From positions 6,586,690 through 6,650,689 of the forward strand of contig CM051029.1 in NCBI GenBank assembly GCA_027627225.1: a stretch of DNA of 64,000 bases, given 5' to 3'. A program made the position numbers and the translations under genes. Shown in pieces: positions 18,803 through 60,940 of the stretch. How positions within the stretch are numbered: the stretch's first letter is position 1; each line of letters opens with the position of its first letter. Origin of the DNA: Congeria kusceri. Taxonomy: Eukaryota > Mollusca > Bivalvia > Myida > Dreissenidae. The notes below the pieces were generated by a model, which saw nothing but the letters and a program-made list of their open reading frames with translations, was not told the origin of the DNA and did no database searches.

Positions 18803-19849
18803 AACATATGAAATGTTTAAGTGTTTGAGGCAATTATATTAAATGCGCGTATCAATACATTGCCATGCCATTATTTTTTTGGTGAATCATAATATGATTT
18901 GATACAAACTATATAAACGAAGTTTCGGTTTTAACTTCTTGTAATTCGGAGTGTGTTTATTTGTACTCTTATTGTCGTTACGTTTCATTATGGATGTTGG
19001 GAAATTGGGAAATGTATTGCGAATAATACTAGCAGCAAAGCCGTGTCAATTTTAAATGTGGCGACTTCATTTGGGAACAAAAACACATGCACATCATATT
19101 GATTCGTAAATTGTGTGCTAAATACAATTAGACAAATTGTTAAGCGAATACATTTTATAAAGTATGACGTTAATGGCCGCTGATTTATTTTGGCATTCCT
19201 TTTTTCAATCACTATCGATTTTCGCCGCGTGCAAACAATTCAAACAGACGGTCATATATTTTATATTCAAATCTTACTGGTTGATATTGATACAATCTGA
19301 TAAGAAACTATCCAATAAATTACAAAACAATCAATGCGTATTTCAGTGATGTGAAACATCAAATATAAATGATGTATTCTCTGTAATGTCTTTTTTTCAA
19401 ATGTAAATACTTACAAGAGAATTCACAGATAAACCGTTGATATGTACATGTAACCCCCTTTCAATTAATATAAAAAACATCCGAAAACAATCCATCTGCT
19501 GCTAAAACGTGTGTCATAATGTACGAACTATTTTTTTTAATGCAGGGACAAATGCGCTTTGTTACATGAAGTACAAGTTGGACATTATGTTGTTGTTTTT
19601 TTATAAAGTTATATTCACTTAAATACAATCGATGTTGCAAAATAGAAATATATATTTGAGAGTTTCAAGATATGTGTGTATTTCAGACTACGCCTGTTGG
19701 ATATCCGTCAGCTTACTTGTATTTATTATATGCTTTTCAATCAAATATATAATTTTATAGATGTATTTTTTAAAAATATTTTCAATGTGAAATATTTTCA
19801 CTTACATAAAACGCATTAGTTTTCTCTCAATCGCATCGATCTACCATTA
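18802..19849. other. AT-rich intergenic sequence
   Basis: No gene or clear repeat recognised. Confidence 0.35.
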
Positions 19850-20262
19850 GTGGATTACCTCCCTTCGCAAAGTTATACATGTACAGTATTTACATACATT
19901 TGTTTACAGAAAACACATGATATAATTCAACAAAGGTATAATTTAGTGACAACGACGCACAATTTATGGCACCATTCCCCATCATACTTATGTTACACAA
20001 TTTTGAAATCATTTATGAAGTCATTTTTATGAAGTCAGAATACACAAACGTGTGACGTTTAAGCTTCTCTCGCGCACTTTAATGTATTTATCGTCCAAAA
20101 AGCATCACATTAAACGAAAATGTGTTTATTTTGGGAAATGATCGGATTTTTCTTTCACTCGTTGTCATAGAAAATTATAGTTTCACTCATGGCTATTGTT
20201 TTCTATAACCACTCATGAAATAAAATCCATCATTCACCGAAATCAACAAATATCCTCTATGT
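19850..20262 (+). repeat. Dispersed element, second copy inverted at 48400-48815
   Basis: Shared blocks in the same order: ACATGTACAGTA, TTGTTTACA, ATTCAACAAA.GTATAATTTAG, TGTGACGTTTAAGCTTCTCTCG (TTGTGATGTTTAAGCTTATCTCG in the other copy) and CCGAAATCAACAAATATCCTC at the right end. The right-hand part is a decayed version of the long hairpin that is well kept at 48411-48543. Confidence 0.75.
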
Positions 20263-22175: not shown

Positions 22176-23098
22176 TTTACAATGTTTTAAATAGAAAGAT
22201 TAGAATGTTGTTATAGAAAATGACACTGGTTTGTACTTTTCATATAGATACTACCAAAAATATGAAAATTATGATAAAAAATCACCAATATAAAGTCAAT
22301 TTTCTTGACAGTATTTTGGGAATGATTATACTTTCCTTATTCAAATAGAAAGCATTCATAAAACTGCCTATGAATATGTACAGATAAGAACATCGTTTAA
22401 ATACATGTACCAGCTTTAATGCACACAGTCTCTAATAACACGACGGCTATACATATTTGTCCTGCACATACGGTTTCTGTTCGACAATAAGGCAAGTTTG
22501 ACTTGTTTCCATAAAAATTGCAAAATAATATTCTGTTTTACATTTAACTAAGTATAAGCCCTTATACATTTTTTTATCCAACGAAGAATCTTTATAACAA
22601 GCGAACGTGTCTATATTGTTTAAGGAAACGAGTGGGGTTAATATTAACAATATTAAAGTCGTCTTTGGGGTAAGTACGCATATTTAAAGACACTGGATCT
22701 ACTTTGAATGAAAACATATTTTATTAATTTGGCAATTTAATATTATATATAGTTGAAGATTATTTACGAAACAAAATCTAGCCATATCTTTTGTATAATG
22801 TAAACGAGTGAACACTTTTTATTACAAATGCACTTTTAACTGATGAGATGCATATCATTGATAGTGTATTACACATATATGTTTAGTCGAACAAAGTCCC
22901 AATATGTTTCGGCAGTTTTTTTATCTGCATTATGTTGTAATTCGGCAGACCCCATTTACGTTTTCCAAATATAAAAAGAGACACAATGTTGTTTTACTAA
23001 ATGTTGTTAAATCTAGATCTATCGTGGTCAGTAATATTGTAAGAATACGTAACATAATATGTTGAATATATGTATATTAAAATATATATCCGTTCCAG
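22176..23098. other. AT-rich sequence upstream of the first Ig exon
   Basis: It should contain the 5' end (signal-peptide exon) of the gene at 23099-37293, but I could not identify it. Confidence 0.35.
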
Positions 23099-23437
23099 TA
23101 AACGGTGAGAGCCTACTGCTGAAGACGGATAATTCAAATGTTATTGAACACAACTCAATAACACTGATATGCAGTCTACCCAGTAAACCCATGCACGTTT
23201 CATGGTGGCGAAATGGCTCATCAGCCGCCATATGGACATGGATGAATCCAGACACGTCGTGCCAGTCATCGCCATCACCACTCCCTGGGTACGGCTTCTC
23301 TGGCATACACAGCACTGTCTACACACTGACTCTAAATCACGTGCATAGGACCCAGGATGGGGAGTTTTGGCAGTGCGCAGTCAATTATGTTGGTAGCACT
23401 ATGAATGACAGCAACAGCATAACGCTCCGCGTTATAG
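23099..23437 (+). CDS. V-like Ig exon, intact
   Basis: A 339-bp phase 1-1 exon (acceptor TCCGTTCCAG, donor GTATGT), open throughout. It reads NGESLLLKTDNSNVIEHNS, ITLICSLPSKPMHVSWWRNG, then VYTLTLNHVHRTQDGEFWQC and AVNYVGSTMNDSNSITLRV. The LICS...SWWRNG and DGEFWQCAV segments give the Cys-Trp...D.G..C frame of an Ig V-type domain. Reverse-strand ORFs here are shadows. Confidence 0.88.
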
Positions 23438-24539
23438 GTATGTTTCGCCCTACACCAATCAGTGTTCTTATTTGTTGTAAATGCATGTTTATCAACACGG
23501 GCAAATACATATATTTGATTACAAAACAATCAAGTTACTTGTGTGTTCAACATTCTAGCTTAGAGTAATTGTCAGATTTTAGATATATTATTAGACTTTT
23601 CGTTTGTAAAGGCAATTTAATATCAACATAAGGCTACAACCAACAAAGGTATTTTATGTGTAACCTCTTACGTCGCATGAATAACAGTTTATGTAAAGGA
23701 CACATAGCCATCGACCTGATAAAACAAACAATATTAAACTTAGATCAATTTGAATATCAACTCGCAATCATATATGCGCCAGGAGTTGTGTGTGTTTGTT
23801 TTACATTTATGTGCTGACTACAGGTTGTAAAGTAAGATATAAAGAGGCTTGTCAATATGTTTACCATGCATCTTGCACTGTTACAAAATGTATAAGAGTT
23901 TTCTAACATGAATCTACTTCACGATATATATCAGTATATATCAGTTTTTGATAAATTCGTTATACGGTTTAAATGTCGCGCCATGACCTAGCGTTTTGTA
24001 TTTCTCTCTCAAAATAGTCCATTACATGACATTACTTTAATAACACTGAATGATTAATTATTCTTTATTGCTGGCTTGTGACAGGTTTCAAACAACTAAG
24101 TCATTGTGATGTAATTCATTTCAAATTTTAATAGTATCAGATTAGGAACAGACACGTGGGTAAGATAACGAATTTAATTTTAAAAAGAGGATTACATGAT
24201 TTGTACCAACATTTATCACAATCCAGACAAATGAAAGTAATAATGAAATAACATAATTATAGCAATGCAATTTAAAGTAAACAGTTATCAAAATGAAGAC
24301 AGATTTCAATCACATTACAGTTGTATTATTATATGGTTAGAATATAGTTTGAACAACATAATAGGAATTGTGCTGTAGATAAACGCATGCATTTGGCAAA
24401 ATGAAGTTTTATTAATGCATGTTAAATGGAAAATATAAGTGGGCTGCTAAAAAAAAAGACATGAAAAGCATGTATTATAAATTGATGGTTAAGTAAAGGT
24501 AATTGAGGATGTTATTTAGCAAATAAGTTTCGCATTATA
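23438..24539. other. Intron sequence, nothing recognised
   Basis: Intron 1 upstream of the transposon, AT-rich, no exon or repeat identified. Confidence 0.35.
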
Positions 24540-30594: not shown

Positions 30595-31140
30595 TAAGTC
30601 CAACTAGTTCAAGGTCAAGGTCAAAGTGAAGTTGGGCGATATGGGTGGATTGGGGATGGTCATAAGCAACAACTGTGTATGCATCCAAGTGTTGTAGAAA
30701 GCGGTGTTGGTGCTAGACGAAATGGTTAAATCTAGTTAACCAAGAAACAGCCCATTTGAATTATTCTAAGTGCAAATTAGGTCAAGGTCAAGGTCAAAGT
30801 GAGGTTGGGTGATATGGGTGTATTGGGAACGGTCATAAGTAACAACTGTGCAATATCCAAGTGTCGTAGTAAGCGGTGCTAGACGAACCGGTAAAATCTA
30901 GTTAACCAAGATATGGCACTTTTTAATTATTATAAATCTAAATTAGATCAAGGTCAAAGTGAGGTTGGGTGAAATGGGTGGATAGGGAATAGTCATAAGC
31001 AACACATGTGTAAGTATCAAGTGTTGTAGTAAGCTGTGTTGGTGCCAGACGAAACGGTAAAATCTACTTAAGCTTGTCACGGACGGAAGGAAGGACGGAA
31101 GGACGGTCAGGATGATCGCTATATGCCTCCTGCATCAAGA
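30595..31140. repeat. Tandem repeat, ~170-bp unit, 3 copies, with GGACGGAAGG tail
   Basis: GGTCAAGGTCAAAGTGA.GTTGGG-type unit starts near 30613, 30786 and 30950. The array ends in a short GGACGGAAGGA run and TGATCGCTATATGCCTCCTG, a layout common in bivalve Helentron-like non-autonomous elements (general knowledge). Confidence 0.75.
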
Positions 31141-31847
31141 TGCTGGGGGCATAAAAAGAAAAAAAGTTAATGATAATAAATGAATTATAAAAGTTTGAAA
31201 CAAGAAGGGTGAAATGAAAACATGCATTTACACAATTATAACACAATGTGAAAACATATTTCTATTTATTGTATGCTTTTCAGTGATTTATAGGGATATA
31301 TCAGTGAAAGAAAATTGATAATTTACTGTTTCAAAACAGTGAAAATCACCACTTTGGTAATTTTCACGTTCACACTGCTTCCCGATTTAATATCTGAAAT
31401 GAATTAGACGCTCAAAGCCCTACTACAAACTGTATGGAAAAAGGCATAAGATAAAAAGAAAAATCGTTCTTTTCGGTAAAAATATTGATTTTTGATTCAT
31501 CCATGGTCGGAAATAGTCAGTTTAACGCTTGACTGCACCACACGTAAAAATATTACTTTATATTATCACTTGTGAATTAAACTCGAAATTCTACTAAAAC
31601 CAACAAATATCAATTTTTTTTTTCATATGACAGCAATTTCATAATGACTAAATACACTGCTAAAATTTGAAATTTGAAATCTGCTCCGCCCCCCTGGTGG
31701 CATTGTTTTTAACATTTCAAAAAGATTTAAGGTATGTACTAGAGCTGCACCCAAGGAACATTTACGTGGAATTATTTCAAAATCCAGTCAATAGTTTCAA
31801 ATAATAAGATTTTAAATGTTTTTTCTTCTGTTTTTGAGCTGCCATAG

Positions 31848-31990
31848 TGTCCCAGGGTGAGAAAATTGTGCAGCCAGTCCGGGACTCGAACCCGGGATCC
31901 CTCGCTATCAGGGCGAGTGCTCTCCCGACTGAGCTAACCGGGCCGCCACACAACTTCTCCCCTTTAAGTGACCAAGTTCATGCCGTGACA
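31848..31990 (-). repeat. LTR copy A (143 bp) with tRNA-like segment
   Basis: On the minus strand: GGTTAGCTCAGTCGGGAGAG (A box), anticodon arm CTCGC-CCTGATA-GCGAG, then CCCGGGTTCGAGTCCCGG (B box and T arm). The tRNA part is embraced by TTGTGTGGCGGCC and GGCTGCACAA, giving an extended terminal helix. Position 33 of the anticodon loop is C rather than the invariant U, so a working tRNA is unlikely. Confidence 0.8.
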
Positions 31991-32135
31991 TACACCCTCG
32001 CTCAAATATGAATTCGTCCTCGAATTCAGGGATTCATTGTGTTATATAATTACCACGGGCCCTCGGAGAGTTAACCCGAGTAACGTCACGGTCCCGCGTT
32101 GGGCGCCAATGTCAACGTAGCCCAGTCGACCTATG

Positions 32136-32278
32136 TGTCACTGGGGGAGAAAATTGTGCAGCCAGTCCGGGACTCGAACCCGGGCCCCCTCGCTTTCAGG
32201 GCGAGTGCTCTCCCGACTGTGCTAACAGGGCCGCCACACAACATCTCCCCTTTAAGTGACCAAGTTCATGCCGTGACA
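32136..32278 (-). repeat. LTR copy B (143 bp)
   Basis: Same layout as copy A; anticodon loop CCTGAAA. A 26-bp extra segment (32110-32135) separates it from the primer-binding-site-like sequence. ORFs here are shadows of the repeat. Confidence 0.8.
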
Positions 32279-32398
32279 TACACCCTCGCTCAAATATGAA
32301 TTCGTCCTCGAAATCAGGGATTCATGGTTTTATATAATTACCACGGGCCCTGGGAGAGTTAATCCGGGCAAGGTCACGGCCCCACTTTGGGTGCCAAA

Positions 32399-32541
32399 TG
32401 TCACAGGGTGAGAAAATTGTGCGGCTAGTCCGGGACTCGAACCCGGGACCACTCGCTATCAGGGCGAGTGCTCTCCCGACTGAGCTAACCGGGCCGCCAC
32501 ACAACTTCTCCCCTTTAAGTGACCAAGTTCATGCCGTGACA
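32399..32541 (-). repeat. LTR copy C (143 bp), 5'-most in element orientation
   Basis: Same layout; immediately followed (minus strand) by TTTGGCACCCAAAGTGGGGC. It ends at the right-hand ATAG duplication. Confidence 0.8.
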
Positions 32542-32545
32542 ATAG

Positions 32546-33199
32546 CAACCCGAATGTTCAATGTATATCATTGTTTTGCAGGAATTTCCGAAAGAAACTC
32601 CCCAGGAACATTGCAAAGTTTGGTTAAATTCGTTTAATAAAGTTGAGCAGATAAGCCAAAACAAATAAGTACCGGCTTGCGATACATTTTCGCCCAGAAA
32701 TGGAGTTTGCTTGTTTTTGTCTTGCTTGTGACTTGCTTAACTGTTTGTAATGAAGCTTGCCACATGCAATATTAAGCACCGTACAGAAAAAAAACCTTAG
32801 CATTTTTTTAAAATTCATTTACACATATCAAATCATAACACTATATAACAAACACATGCAAATGCTCAATGCATAATTATTTGCTCACCTTAAAAAACGT
32901 ATTAGCTTAAAAAGCAAATTAACCAATTTCCAGTGAAAAAAACATCAGTCGAGGTCTGAACTGGCGTACTGAAGTATTGTTTGTTGACATGGATATAAAC
33001 ATATGGAATTATTCCGAATTTCGGCAACAATCCACTTAATTTTAACACAATAATCAGGCTAACCAATTCCTAAAATGTTTTACAGTATTTGTGTTTTGTT
33101 TTGACATGTTTTTATAAGTGAATAAAGTCAACATTTTATAAAAATGAAACTTACTTCACACAAGTCAATTTTAATTAATGAATTACCTTATGTTATTTA
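32546..33199. other. Continuation of interrupted host repeat, then AT-rich Harbinger interior
   Basis: CAACCCGAATGTTCAATGTA continues the repeat cut by the LTR element. Beyond ~32640 nothing was recognised. Confidence 0.45.
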
Positions 33200-34330: not shown

Positions 34331-34673
34331 CTTATTTCTATTCTAAAATGATAGGCGTATATGTTTTTGCAATTGTAATTAGAGCGACTTTTTACACTGC
34401 TCCGCTAAGAATCGGGACTTCTTTTTGCGTTGTTTAGTGTGTAGTTTTGCAACGATAATTTTGTTCTGTGTCTATAGAAAAAAATAGCGAGTATCAATGT
34501 TGAACTGTTTTTCATATCAACATATGTAGCAGACTCAGTATCAATCATACGCACAATATTCGTTATTTCTTAGAAGTGTAGCAGTTTGCATACATGTAGC
34601 ATTTATATGTGTAATATTTATATAATTTGGAATTCAATTATGTGCACTTATTAACCCAAAGTGATTGTTGCAG
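34331..34673. other. Intron between transposon and Ig exon 2
   Basis: Starts with the right-hand CTT target duplication; otherwise unremarkable intronic sequence. Confidence 0.4.
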
Positions 34674-34997
34674 TTCATATCACGAAACTTACAATGTACC
34701 CAGAAGACGACCCAGTATCTTTGATAGCAAGTCAACAAATACATTTAACTTGTACCAGCGACTTTGGGAGACCCAGTCCTTCAATTTTCTGGTTCAAGCA
34801 TCTGATCGCAGGTCATTCATCACACGACATAAACATGACATGCTTTGCGTCATCCACAACTTCGAATCAGAGCATAACCGTCAGCACCCTGGCATTTGAC
34901 CCTTCCAAGTCCGACCACAACATGCGACTTTACTGCACGGGAAACAACGGAGGCCAAACTGTGATCTCAGAATTGAAGCCTTTAATTAACGTCCAAT
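34674..34997 (+). CDS. Ig-domain exon 2, intact
   Basis: A 324-bp phase 1-1 exon (acceptor GATTGTTGCAG, donor GTAAGA). It reads HITKLTMYPEDDPVSLIASQ, QIHLTCTSDFGRPSPSIFWF, then STLAFDPSKSDHNMRLYCTG and NNGGQTVISELKPLINV. The first Cys is in HLTC, the Trp in IFWF and the second Cys in RLYC. Confidence 0.88.
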
Positions 34998-35184
34998 GTA
35001 AGATGATTAGCATGTTATAAATACGTCGGTGGTTTTTATGATGTCGCATCTGAATTATGTTTTCTATTTCAATAAATATGTAACTAGTTAAACTAGTTTT
35101 AAGTTATGTTACAAAAGATGCCGCGCTTATGCAAATCATTTACCTGTATCGTAAAATATATACGGTTCATTTGGTCGACTTCAG

Positions 35185-35473
35185 ACGGGCCATATACTCC
35201 AGAGATTTTGTTAAACGGAATAACAGTAACAGACACGTTAAACGTTATTTCTGGTCAACCTTTAACTATCGAGTGCGTAAGTGGCAGCAATCCACCTCCA
35301 ACCTATTCGTGGAAGTATCCTGGCGGTTCAGCAACTGGTGGAACCTTATCGATTTCAAGCATTCAACCGTTCCATGGTGGGGACTTCACGTGTTATGCTA
35401 GAAACACTATGTCATCGTCGACTGGTATAACTATTTCGGAACAGAAGACATCAGCAATCGGTGCCCAAGTGCT
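35185..35473 (+). CDS. Ig-domain exon 3, intact
   Basis: Acceptor GGTCGACTTCAG. It reads GPYTPEILLNGITVTDTL, NVISGQPLTIECVSGSNPP, PTYSWKYPGGSATGGTLSI, then SSIQPFHGGDFTCYARNTM. Compact I-set Ig with LTIEC, YSW and GGDFTCYA.N. The donor is weak: GTGCCC at 35461 or GTTAAT at 35474, both phase 1. Confidence 0.83.
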
Positions 35474-36060
35474 TGGTTAATAGATGTTGTTTTCCTTTAG
35501 TTGATCTTGATTCATGCTTACGTAGCAACATGATTATGTTTCACTATGCGTGCACATTTGCTTACCAGTTTGTTATATAAAAGAGGTTATATAAGTAAGG
35601 TTATAACAAACACTGCGATGTTTATCTGTGAAGCAATGGTAACGCGGTCGACATCTGGTGTTATAAATCATCATCAATAAAATAGTTAAGTGAGCAAAGC
35701 TGACTTTCACAACATCATTGTCCAATGTTATGTGTAAATGTATACACTGAGACCGTTCATGTGCCCTGAATACTCAAATATGTATCTGTATTACTATAAT
35801 GATTATGTATTTGATTCTGAAAATGTATTGGACTGACTTCTCAGAAATACTTACTATTTAGCGAAATAACTATAATTCAATTACAGTTCAAATTGCCCTT
35901 GAGTTTTCATTATTATTCCGTAATGTTACGTTATCCGTTGTTCTAGAATGATTGCATATCATCTATATTACCACGTGGTTATATATTCATTTTGAAAATT
36001 AAAGTAACTGACAGAAACAAATAGTTTTAAATAACATAATATACTGTAATTCAATTACAG
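35474..36060. other. Intron with a duplicated acceptor sequence
   Basis: TAATTCAATTACAGTTC occurs at 35872-35888 and again at the real exon 4 acceptor (36047-36063), 175 bp apart. Confidence 0.5.
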
Positions 36061-37293: not shown

Positions 37294-38234
37294 GTATCGA
37301 GGGTAGGCCGACAGAACCATTTGAACAATGATTCCTTTATATATACTTTATAATGAAGCACGGTTACATACGACAATTGTTTGTATATACAAATCGAAAT
37401 CCATAAGATTGTATCGTATACTTGGTAAACATAAGAGTATAACATGTACATGAACAACCTTTGCGCGTACAATTTATATACGAAACATTGATACATATGG
37501 GAACGGATAGCAAAACAGATATAATGATGTTTGTAAAATATTAGTATTTCTTTTGTAAACACTCAACCATGGACAATGAAGCATTTATATTGAACGTTAT
37601 GGTGTGTGTAAATAGATAGTATCCATGTATATTTGTGTGTTTTGAATGTTTTCTAAATAAATACGACTAATCAGTTTAATACATTTGTGTTTACTTTCAA
37701 CATTGGGCTGTAAAAAGAAGTCGTTTGCTAACCTAGACCGAAAGGTGGATTTTCGCTTGAACTTGAACGTTTGATATATCCTTTCATATCATATCAATAA
37801 ATCTATAAAACGTCAATCGTCATGTTTATAACGGTATATTGTAGTACGAGGGGTAATCGACAAAGTCGCGGAAAGATTATCTCGTTTCTTTATTTGACAT
37901 GCAATATTTATGACATTTCTACTAAATACAGATTGATTTAATACAAGTATATTTACAAATGTTCATTAACATCACTTATCAAATAAAATACCACAGTCTC
38001 TATAGTTACGTCACTATGCCATATCAAGCCCAATGATTTTTGACGTCGACGTCAACACAAATATCTTATGGCAACTCAGATAGTGGTGGGCTGTTAATCC
38101 TTTTTAACATAATACACGCTCAATCCACGAGTATAATTATGAAACAATCCCTAAATGCGCCAGTATGAATGTTAGAAATGGCGGCCTGCACTGCGCTTAA
38201 AAGCTCGTCAATATGTATTGTGGAATCATTTGAA
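37294..38234. other. Intergenic, nothing recognised
   Basis: Downstream of the Ig/FN3 gene; a long minus ORF at 37128-37562 is a shadow of its terminal exon plus chance sequence. Confidence 0.35.
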
Positions 38235-39266
38235 TACGCTGGGTACAACTTTCGCGAACATGCTATCGCGGACATATTTGCGTGGTCTTAAATTCGTGCA
38301 AACCCGATTTAGAAAAAAACAGTGTTTTACAATCAAAAGTTCATTGATCGGTGTAACACCCGACTGTACGGATCGGAAGTAGAAAGCCCTACTATAACAT
38401 CTTGTTTATTGCAATAAACATGCGTATCGGTACAGGATTAGGCCCTTAGGTGATAATACATGTCCACCACTCCACTTTTGGATAATAGGGACCGCATCAG
38501 ATGATAAACGTGTTTAACCCACATTGTATAATACGCTGCATTTACAGTCTGCCCTTGCGGTACGGCAATTGTTAAATAAATACGCTGGGTACAACTTTCG
38601 CGAACATGCTATCGCGGACATATTTGCGTGGTCTTGAATTCGTGCAAACCCGATTTAGAAAAAAACAGTGTTTTACAATCAAAAGTTCATTGATCGGTGT
38701 AACACCCGACTGTACGGATCGGTAGTAGAAAGCCCTACTATGACATCTTGTTTATTGCAATAAACATGCGTATCGGTACAGGATTAGGCCCTTAGGTGAT
38801 AATACATGTCCACCACTCCACTTTTGGATAATAGGGACCGCAACAGATGATAAACGTGTTTAACCCACATTGTATAATACGCTGCATTTACAGTCTGCCC
38901 TTGCGGTACGGCAATTGTTAAATAAATACGCTGGGTACAACTTTCGCGAACATGCTATCGCGGACATATTTGCGTGGTCTTGAATTCGTGCAAACCCGAT
39001 TTAGAAAAAAACAGTGTTTTACAATCAAAAGTTCATTGATCGGTGTAACACCCGACTGTACGGATCGGTAGTAGAAAGCCCTACTATGACATCTTGTTTA
39101 TTGCAATAAACATGCGTATCGGTACAGGATTAGGCCCTTAGGTGATAATACATGTCCACCACTCCACTTTTGGATAATAGGGACCGCAACAGATGATAAA
39201 CGTGTTTAACCCACATTGTATAATACGCTGCATTTACAGTCTGCCCTTGTGGTACGGCAATTGTTG
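38235..39266. repeat. Tandem repeat, 346-bp unit, 3 copies, very young
   Basis: TACGCTGGGTACAACTTTCG starts units at 38235, 38581 and 38927. Copies 2 and 3 differ at one position seen (CTTGCGG against CTTGTGG); copy 1 differs from them at about four. No ORF spans the unit. Such similarity implies very recent expansion or an assembly duplication. Confidence 0.95.
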
Positions 39267-48399: not shown

Positions 48400-48815
48400 G
48401 ACATATAGAGGATATTTGTTGATTTCGGTGTAAGAGCGTATTTTATGTCACGAGTGTCCATAGAAAATGATATTAAATATATATTTCATATGGGCACGAG
48501 TGAAATAAAATACGATCTTACACCGAAATCAACATATTTTCTTTTTATTTTATGCTTTTGGACAATAAATAAATACAATTGCGCGAGATAAGCTTAAACA
48601 TCACAAGTTAGTGTAATCTGACGTCATAAAAATGACGTCATCAATGATTCCAAAACTGTCACTCGTTAGTATGGTGCGAAAAAAGTGCCATATTTTGTGA
48701 GTCATTGTCGCTAAATTATAATTTTGTTGAATTGTGTAATGTGCTTTATGTAAACACATGCATGTACATACTGTACATGTACATACATTTGCCAAGGGTT
48801 GTAAACTACTACTTG
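48400..48815 (-). repeat. Dispersed element with long hairpin, inverted relative to 19850-20262
   Basis: The left arm 48411-48469 (GATATTTGTTGATTTCGGTG...) and right arm 48484-48543 are inverted copies about 58 nt long with high identity. The rest matches the 19850 copy, including two TGACGTCA palindromes (48619-48626, 48633-48640) and ACATACTGTACATGTACAT. It behaves like a foldback non-autonomous DNA element. Confidence 0.78.
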
Positions 48816-48850
48816 TAGATTGATGCTATTTACTAAAAAGTAGTCCGTTT

Positions 48851-48963
48851 AATGATATATTTTCAATGCAGTGAAAATATTTTTACTGCTTCAACAGTGA
48901 AAATATAAAATGTTATTTCACCAATAAAAAAAAATTCGATATTTCACTGAAAAGCATATCATA
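48851..48963. mobile_element. Small TIR element (MITE-like, ~113 bp)
   Basis: The start ATGATATATTTTCAATGCAG with TGAAAATAT, and the end GATATTTCACTGAAAAGCAT with ATCAT, are imperfect inverted repeats of about 27 bp. An inner palindrome has CAGTGAAAATATTTTTACTG. Related arm sequence occurs near 2540 and 31340. Confidence 0.55.
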
Positions 48964-59857: not shown

Positions 59858-60940
59858 TGATATTACGGTGTCACTTGTTTCACGTATAAGTTATCTGATG
59901 ATAATGTGTTCCGTTTGGTCATACTTCGTTGTATTTAGATTCAATTGTAATTTTTGTACCATTTCAACCATGTTTAGAGATGAATTTTATTATACTTTTA
60001 TTGTTGTATTTGAACTCGTTTATCAAGGAAGGATAATTTTATATTTAACTTAGACTACTGATATAATCAGATCAGTTTTTATTTATTTATAAAATATCCT
60101 TTATATCAGTGTTGCTTTAACGTTATTGAATACACTGACAATCATTCTAGTGATGCATGCCATCACACAGGTTGAGAAAAGTGTGTAGCAAATCCAGGAT
60201 CCGCACTGTTGCTGTTGCGTATGTGCGTATGACCAGGGAAGCCCCTAAAATATGCATATTTAATAATGACTACAGATGTTTAACACAAAACGTTGTGTAT
60301 GAAAGTCTTTAACAAAACATCGTCTTTTGTATACATATTACGATTCTTGAACGCAATAATAAAGTTGGTTGTGACTCGTAAAGTGTCCTATGATTGAAAA
60401 CAATAATACATATGTTTAGGACATGTAGTTAAATGTAAAAGACAATGCACTGACAATTTGCACGCAGACGATATCACTTGTGTACTAGAACATATTGTAC
60501 GAAGTTTGACAGTCAGACAATGTTTCAAAGTTCTATGTGTTGATATTGTATTGCTATATTGTTTTGTTGTTGTTCTTTCTTGCTGCATTAAAGTAAAACA
60601 CACTGATAATTATGTTTTCATTATATTGTTTTCGTCACAATTACAGTATTATATGTTTTTCAACATGAGTAAATGAACACATTTCCGGAGCTATGTCTTC
60701 GAAAAGTGATTTCAGCAGTATTTAATGTTACTATGCCAGAAAAATAGTACCATACATCTTAGAAACCATGTAAAAGAACATTAAACGCAACAAAACCATT
60801 CTAATGACATGATAGGTAAAATTAAATAACTTGTTAAAGGCAGAATAAAGTGGTTCGTAAATAGTATTGTAATATTAGAGGGTCATTCAAGGAGCATGTA
60901 TGTGAAATTGTTTTATTTTGAAATCCAGTCTGGGGTTTCT
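59858..60940. other. Intergenic, nothing recognised
   Basis: No coding signature. Confidence 0.3.

Follow-up and report, generated by a model that had tools for sequence, protein, structure and literature searches.

A probable Helenus-type miniature LTR retrotransposon with three tRNA-like LTRs in the bivalve Congeria kusceri

Miniature LTR retrotransposons (TRIMs) with tRNA-like LTRs have been described under the name Helenus from fungi, from one plant and from animals of six phyla; bivalves, fish and wasps are among their hosts, and sizes range from 311 to 1263 bp (Kojima 2024, PMC10886601, cited throughout, like the other papers here, for part of its text). According to the same source, animal Helenus elements have 4-bp target site duplications (TSDs), the primer-binding sites (PBSs) of bivalve families correspond to Lys, His, Ile, Pro, Glu or Ser, a comparison of PBSs links the animal elements to Gypsy, tRNA isotypes disagree in many families, and tandem arrays are noted for the zebrafish family LTR-11_DR. 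Arrays are also on record for other TRIMs: Cassandra forms short arrays that tend towards about three LTRs, for which recombination and template switching have both been proposed (PMC7215508), and in Wukong three LTRs were reported for 8 of 89 intact elements, most multi-LTR copies having TSDs (PMC4528315).

In a 64,000-nucleotide stretch of the Congeria kusceri genome (the window), we identified an element of 694 bp that is read on the minus strand from 32541 to 31848 and is arranged as LTR(143)-internal(120)-LTR(143)-internal(145)-LTR(143), all of its features lying on that strand. Repeat comparison placed the 5′ LTR in element orientation (LTR-A) at 32399–32541, internal segment A at 32279–32398, the middle LTR (LTR-B) at 32136–32278, internal segment B, in which 25 nt are extra, at 31991–32135, and the 3′ LTR (LTR-C) at 31848–31990; the portion LTR-internal A-LTR measures 406 bp. 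The LTRs align with one another without gaps, confirming the three 143-bp repeats that a sequence-only reading of this DNA had proposed, while its figure of about 120 bp for both internals holds for A and fails for B. All three LTRs start with TGTCA and end with GACA, which is preceded by T in A and B and by G in C, giving TG...CA ends.

The single ATAG duplication that had been claimed for the outer sides of the array was found there by reading the sequence, at 31844–31847 on the left and 32542–32545 on the right, and this 4-bp TSD is present at the one locus available in the window (1/1). At the spacing of these flanks, a 4-mer match occurs at 429 of 63298 window positions, or 0.7%. No stop-to-stop open reading frame of at least 100 aa overlaps the element, which is thus without coding capacity, and no A-rich or simple tail is visible in its sequence.

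Further LTR-like sequence within the 64-kb window is limited to one weak match, 41 nt long and ungapped, between LTR-A nt 100–140 and 60166–60206 on the plus strand, which is possibly a decayed LTR end. Its first part obtained a blastn E of 0.01, and 0 of 1000 shuffles of the region, which was picked post hoc, equalled its score; no Rfam tRNA match was returned for it at E up to 5. Searches with exact patterns from the element, two in viral contigs and one in prokaryotic contigs, yielded no copies, which says little given the viral and prokaryotic nature of those collections.

Every LTR harbours a tRNA-like domain. ARAGORN called tRNA-Ser with anticodon TGA in 3/3 LTRs, and the Rfam tRNA family RF00005, with a gathering score of 29, matched all three at 44.7–47.4 bits: 46.8 bits at 32422–32494 in LTR-A, 44.7 bits at 32159–32231 in LTR-B and 47.4 bits at 31871–31943 in LTR-C, where the ARAGORN call covers 31870–31943. 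The domain is 73–74 nt long with a short variable region, and the Rfam alignments show 1, 2 and 3 non-standard stem pairs in the three copies. Scanning with A- and B-box patterns from general knowledge, each of which matched 3/3 LTRs, located the A box as TAGCTCAGTCGG in LTR-A (32476–32487) and LTR-C (31925–31936) and as TAGCACAGTCGG in LTR-B (32213–32224), and the B box as GGTTCGAGTCC in LTR-A (32433–32443), LTR-B (32170–32180) and LTR-C (31882–31892). In all three copies LTR nt 55 is the first of the A box and nt 99 the first of the B box, with 32 nt between the two. The earlier claim of tRNA-type A and B boxes in every LTR is upheld by the pattern scan, as the tRNA-like domain is by ARAGORN and RF00005, and the promoter within each LTR appears tRNA-like, presumably serving pol III. 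Predicted pol III terminators, found by sequence scan at 32413–32416 (LTR-A), 32150–32153 (LTR-B) and 31862–31865 (LTR-C), are TTTT runs at nt 126–129 of each LTR, and the element has no TTTT elsewhere (3/3 LTRs, 0/2 internals); their absence from both internals is also seen in 49.5% of shuffles, and is hence not significant but at most consistent with this role.

The boxes had also been placed within an extended helix, and each of the three LTR cores is indeed predicted to fold with the flanks of the tRNA-like part paired in this way. Compared with 200 dinucleotide shuffles, the helix is clear in the LTR-A core (z -4.11, 1 shuffle as good) and moderate in LTR-C (z -2.10, 6 as good), but that of LTR-B is no better than shuffled sequence (z -0.38, 64 as good). 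Folds of the whole LTR, computed for A and C, gave z values of -4.36 and -1.85, respectively. No cloverleaf appears among the lowest-energy folds; those of A and C are unbranched rods and that of B is branched.

Both internals contain a putative PBS that agrees at 16 of 18 positions with the tRNA-Lys1,2 primer site printed in PMC8775094, the reference being this published site rather than the host's own tRNA-Lys. PBS-A, TGGCACCCAAAGTGGGGC, lies at 32379–32396 and begins 2 nt after the LTR, whereas PBS-B, TGGCGCCCAACGCGGGAC, lies at 32091–32108, at the position equivalent to PBS-A, and begins 2 nt after the 25-nt stretch. The internals had been described as starting with a PBS-like sequence, which is accurate for internal A and inaccurate for internal B, where the 25-nt stretch intervenes. 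Other sites matching the Lys1,2 PBS at 14 or more of 18 positions were absent from both strands of the 64-kb window. At all four mismatched positions the Lys base is found in the opposite copy, which makes a complete match to tRNA-Lys1,2 likely for the parent site.

Directly ahead of each downstream LTR is the same purine-rich but interrupted sequence, GAGCGAGGGTGTA (32279–32291 before LTR-B and 31991–32003 before LTR-C), a weak candidate for a polypurine tract (PPT); no strong polypurine tract precedes the downstream LTRs. The 25-nt stretch, which repeat comparison placed at 32111–32135, occurs only between LTR-B and PBS-B and ends in a second TGACA, like the last letters of the LTR. When this stretch, taken as 26 nt, was aligned with two of the LTRs (A and C), with each internal and with the 100 nt next to the element on either side, 0 of 6 alignments beat their shuffles, the smallest fraction being 0.4985.

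Taken by its anatomy, and from one locus, the element is very probably a miniature LTR retrotransposon of the Helenus type, its three LTRs being separated by two internals: it is of TRIM size without coding capacity, carries tRNA-like A and B boxes in its LTRs, has a PBS near the start of its internals and is flanked by a 4-bp TSD. With the described Helenus elements (PMC10886601, in part) it shares a TRIM length below 1 kb, the tRNA-like boxes in each LTR, the PBS, the 4-bp TSD of the animal members, a primer (Lys) that is among those of bivalves, a tRNA-like part that is unlikely to be a working tRNA and, with LTR-11_DR, the tandem arrangement. It differs from Helenus, as described in that part of the paper, in its three LTRs, its weak PPT and the extended helix around the tRNA-like part. 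The sequence-only reading had presented a tRNA-bearing animal TRIM as something unusual; this does not hold, since Helenus elements, with their 4-bp TSDs, are already on record in six animal phyla (PMC10886601). The element is accordingly likely to be a further example of Helenus and not a new kind, and tandem TRIM arrays, too, have been published before.

Likenesses to other TRIMs are partial. In Cassandra, too, every LTR includes sequence from a pol III gene, short arrays link about three LTRs through internals, and multi-unit transcripts have been reported, but the sequence is 5S rRNA instead of tRNA and the hosts are plants (PMC7215508). The bivalve biv-TRIM likewise exists in solo, canonical and tandem forms, with up to 58 terminal repeats, but these are 202–218 bp long, its internal region measures 77–80 bp and has no clear PBS, and the term 'polymerase III' appears 0 times in the main text of the paper (PMC6934838). 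Wukong, a maize TRIM, resembles the present element in its three-LTR members and in the TSDs on the majority of its multi-LTR copies, and differs in having 230-bp LTRs, a plant host and a 5-bp TSD, with no tRNA-like part mentioned in the portion of the paper used here (PMC4528315).

How the three-LTR array arose was approached through the divergence among its repeats. The LTRs differ at 5 of 143 sites between A and C, at 10 between A and B and at 9 between B and C, and internals A and B differ at 13 of 120 aligned sites, to which the 25 extra nt in B are added. Comparing the outer LTRs (5/143) with the internals (13/120) gave a Fisher p of 0.026 two-sided and 0.017 one-sided, in a test that is small, post hoc and drawn from one locus. 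Also, of the 12 LTR sites that vary, 7 show a base found in the middle LTR only, which by itself is not significant (binomial p 0.066 against one third). Reverse transcription remakes the outer LTRs from one sequence and keeps older differences in the internals and the middle LTR, so an excess of internal divergence favours insertion as an array. On these grounds, formation of the array before or during insertion is modestly favoured over growth in place, and we consider it somewhat more probable than not that the three-LTR form existed when the element inserted; site-specific constraint or gene conversion could mimic the divergence pattern.

The array had been said to have moved as a unit because a single duplication lies outside it. 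That argument is not valid by itself, because unequal exchange within one inserted element leaves identical flanks; the claim instead receives modest support from the divergence values and the 25 private nucleotides. The broader interpretation, to which we give about an even chance, is that multi-LTR arrays of a tRNA-promoter TRIM are mobile in their own right: read-through by pol III, or a switch of template from one family member to a different one, would have built a chimera with three LTRs and two PBSs that was reverse transcribed and integrated whole, and the array would be a replicating state rather than recombination debris.

The principal competitor is that a two-LTR Helenus inserted once and gained its third LTR later, in place, through unequal exchange between LTRs on sister chromatids or homologues, which would yield the same structure and the same single outer TSD. 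Under such a history the internals would have been identical when the array formed and should diverge no more than the outer LTRs, whereas they have diverged about three times as much per site (13/120 against 5/143), and the 25 nt private to one repeat likewise count against it; we therefore regard this as a possible but rather unlikely origin. Less probable still is that two neighbouring elements, each from an insertion of its own, recombined to give one three-LTR array. Joining of this kind has been proposed for TRIM arrays in PMC4528315, in the Yin model as quoted by PMC6934838 and, for Cassandra, in PMC7215508, and it would account for the divergent internals; it predicts, however, non-matching flanks from two target sites, and both flanks here are ATAG, a 4-mer match seen at 0.7% of positions. 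Because the outer flanks match, we judge it improbable.

A separate observation concerns the junctions between internals and LTRs, where no differences fall in the last 34 nt of either internal (31991–32024 and 32279–32312) or in the first 35 nt of any LTR. This PPT-to-U3 block gave uncorrected p values of 0.013 and 0.034, and, as it was spotted post hoc, we put no weight on it.

The life cycle of the element may be pictured as follows. Pol III transcription, driven by the internal A and B boxes of the first LTR, would begin shortly before the tRNA-like domain; the rule for type 2 pol III promoters puts this start near LTR nt 38–45. The polymerase would then pass the TTTT of the upstream LTRs and terminate at that of the last LTR, leaving both RNA ends with a shared R region of approximately 85–90 nt, as strong-stop transfer requires, and the PBS would take tRNA-Lys (isoacceptor 1,2) as primer. 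An integrase would create the 4-bp ATAG duplication, and the proteins of an autonomous Gypsy-type element would be the likely means of mobilisation in trans, a partner suggested by Kojima's PBS comparison for animal Helenus together with the 4-bp TSD. With the promoter inside R, each new copy would bring its own promoter, and the three-LTR form itself could come about via read-through of a tandem copy or via template switching between two co-packaged RNAs. Read-through is the weak step in this scheme, since the TTTT in the first LTR is expected to release most transcripts early.

The locus is a clear case of a Helenus-like array bounded by a TSD, and the divergence of outer LTRs versus internals offers a simple test of whether arrays of TRIMs transpose as such or expand after insertion. 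Applied genome-wide, this test would bear on the choice between recombination and template switching, both of which are named in PMC7215508.

Two further readings concern the nature of the element itself. One takes it for a simple SINE in tandem, or for tandem repeats that stem from a tRNA gene, in keeping with its tRNA-like domains, pol III boxes and short overall length. A tRNA-derived SINE (SINE2) is a single unit with a LINE-like or simple tail and a longer, variable TSD; the array here is bounded by LTRs with TG...CA ends, each of its internals has a Lys-type PBS, its TSD measures 4 bp, and it shows no A-rich or other simple tail, making this reading highly improbable and bearing out the earlier classification as a TRIM-type LTR element as opposed to a tandem SINE. 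That three true tRNA-Ser(UGA) genes are clustered here, as the ARAGORN calls taken literally would imply, can be dismissed, as the 73–74-nt domain has a short variable region where serine tRNAs have a long variable arm, contains up to three non-standard pairs and belongs to a repeat unit that runs well past it. Such elements can nevertheless inflate tRNA-gene counts, ARAGORN calling three tRNA-Ser genes at this locus, and inflation of this kind has been reported by Kojima for rust fungi (PMC10886601). A Cassandra- or Ajax-like 5S-type element was also considered and is ruled out, given that Rfam at gathering scores finds nothing but tRNA in 31800–32600, with no 5S rRNA-derived sequence in the LTRs.

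The surroundings of the element contain both gene-like and repetitive sequence. Pfam searches at a threshold of 0.01 were run on six open reading frames, of which three gave no match and three are plus-strand, Ig-domain exon-like frames situated on both sides of the element (23053–23568, 34655–35020 and 35103–35480). A protein search gave 71 candidates, of which none reached E 0.001. An inverted pair of dispersed repeats at 19771–20260 and 48405–48885 shares 76% identity over 499 aligned bp, and minisatellites of 145 and 166 bp, at 724–2313 and 30609–31071, have the motif TCAAGGTCAAGGTCA in common. The minisatellites are mollusc-like in appearance and, together with the Ig-domain frames, suggest an animal host, perhaps a bivalve. 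Finally, three tandem 346-bp units with approximately 99% identity occupy 38233–39265, forming a recent satellite-like array.
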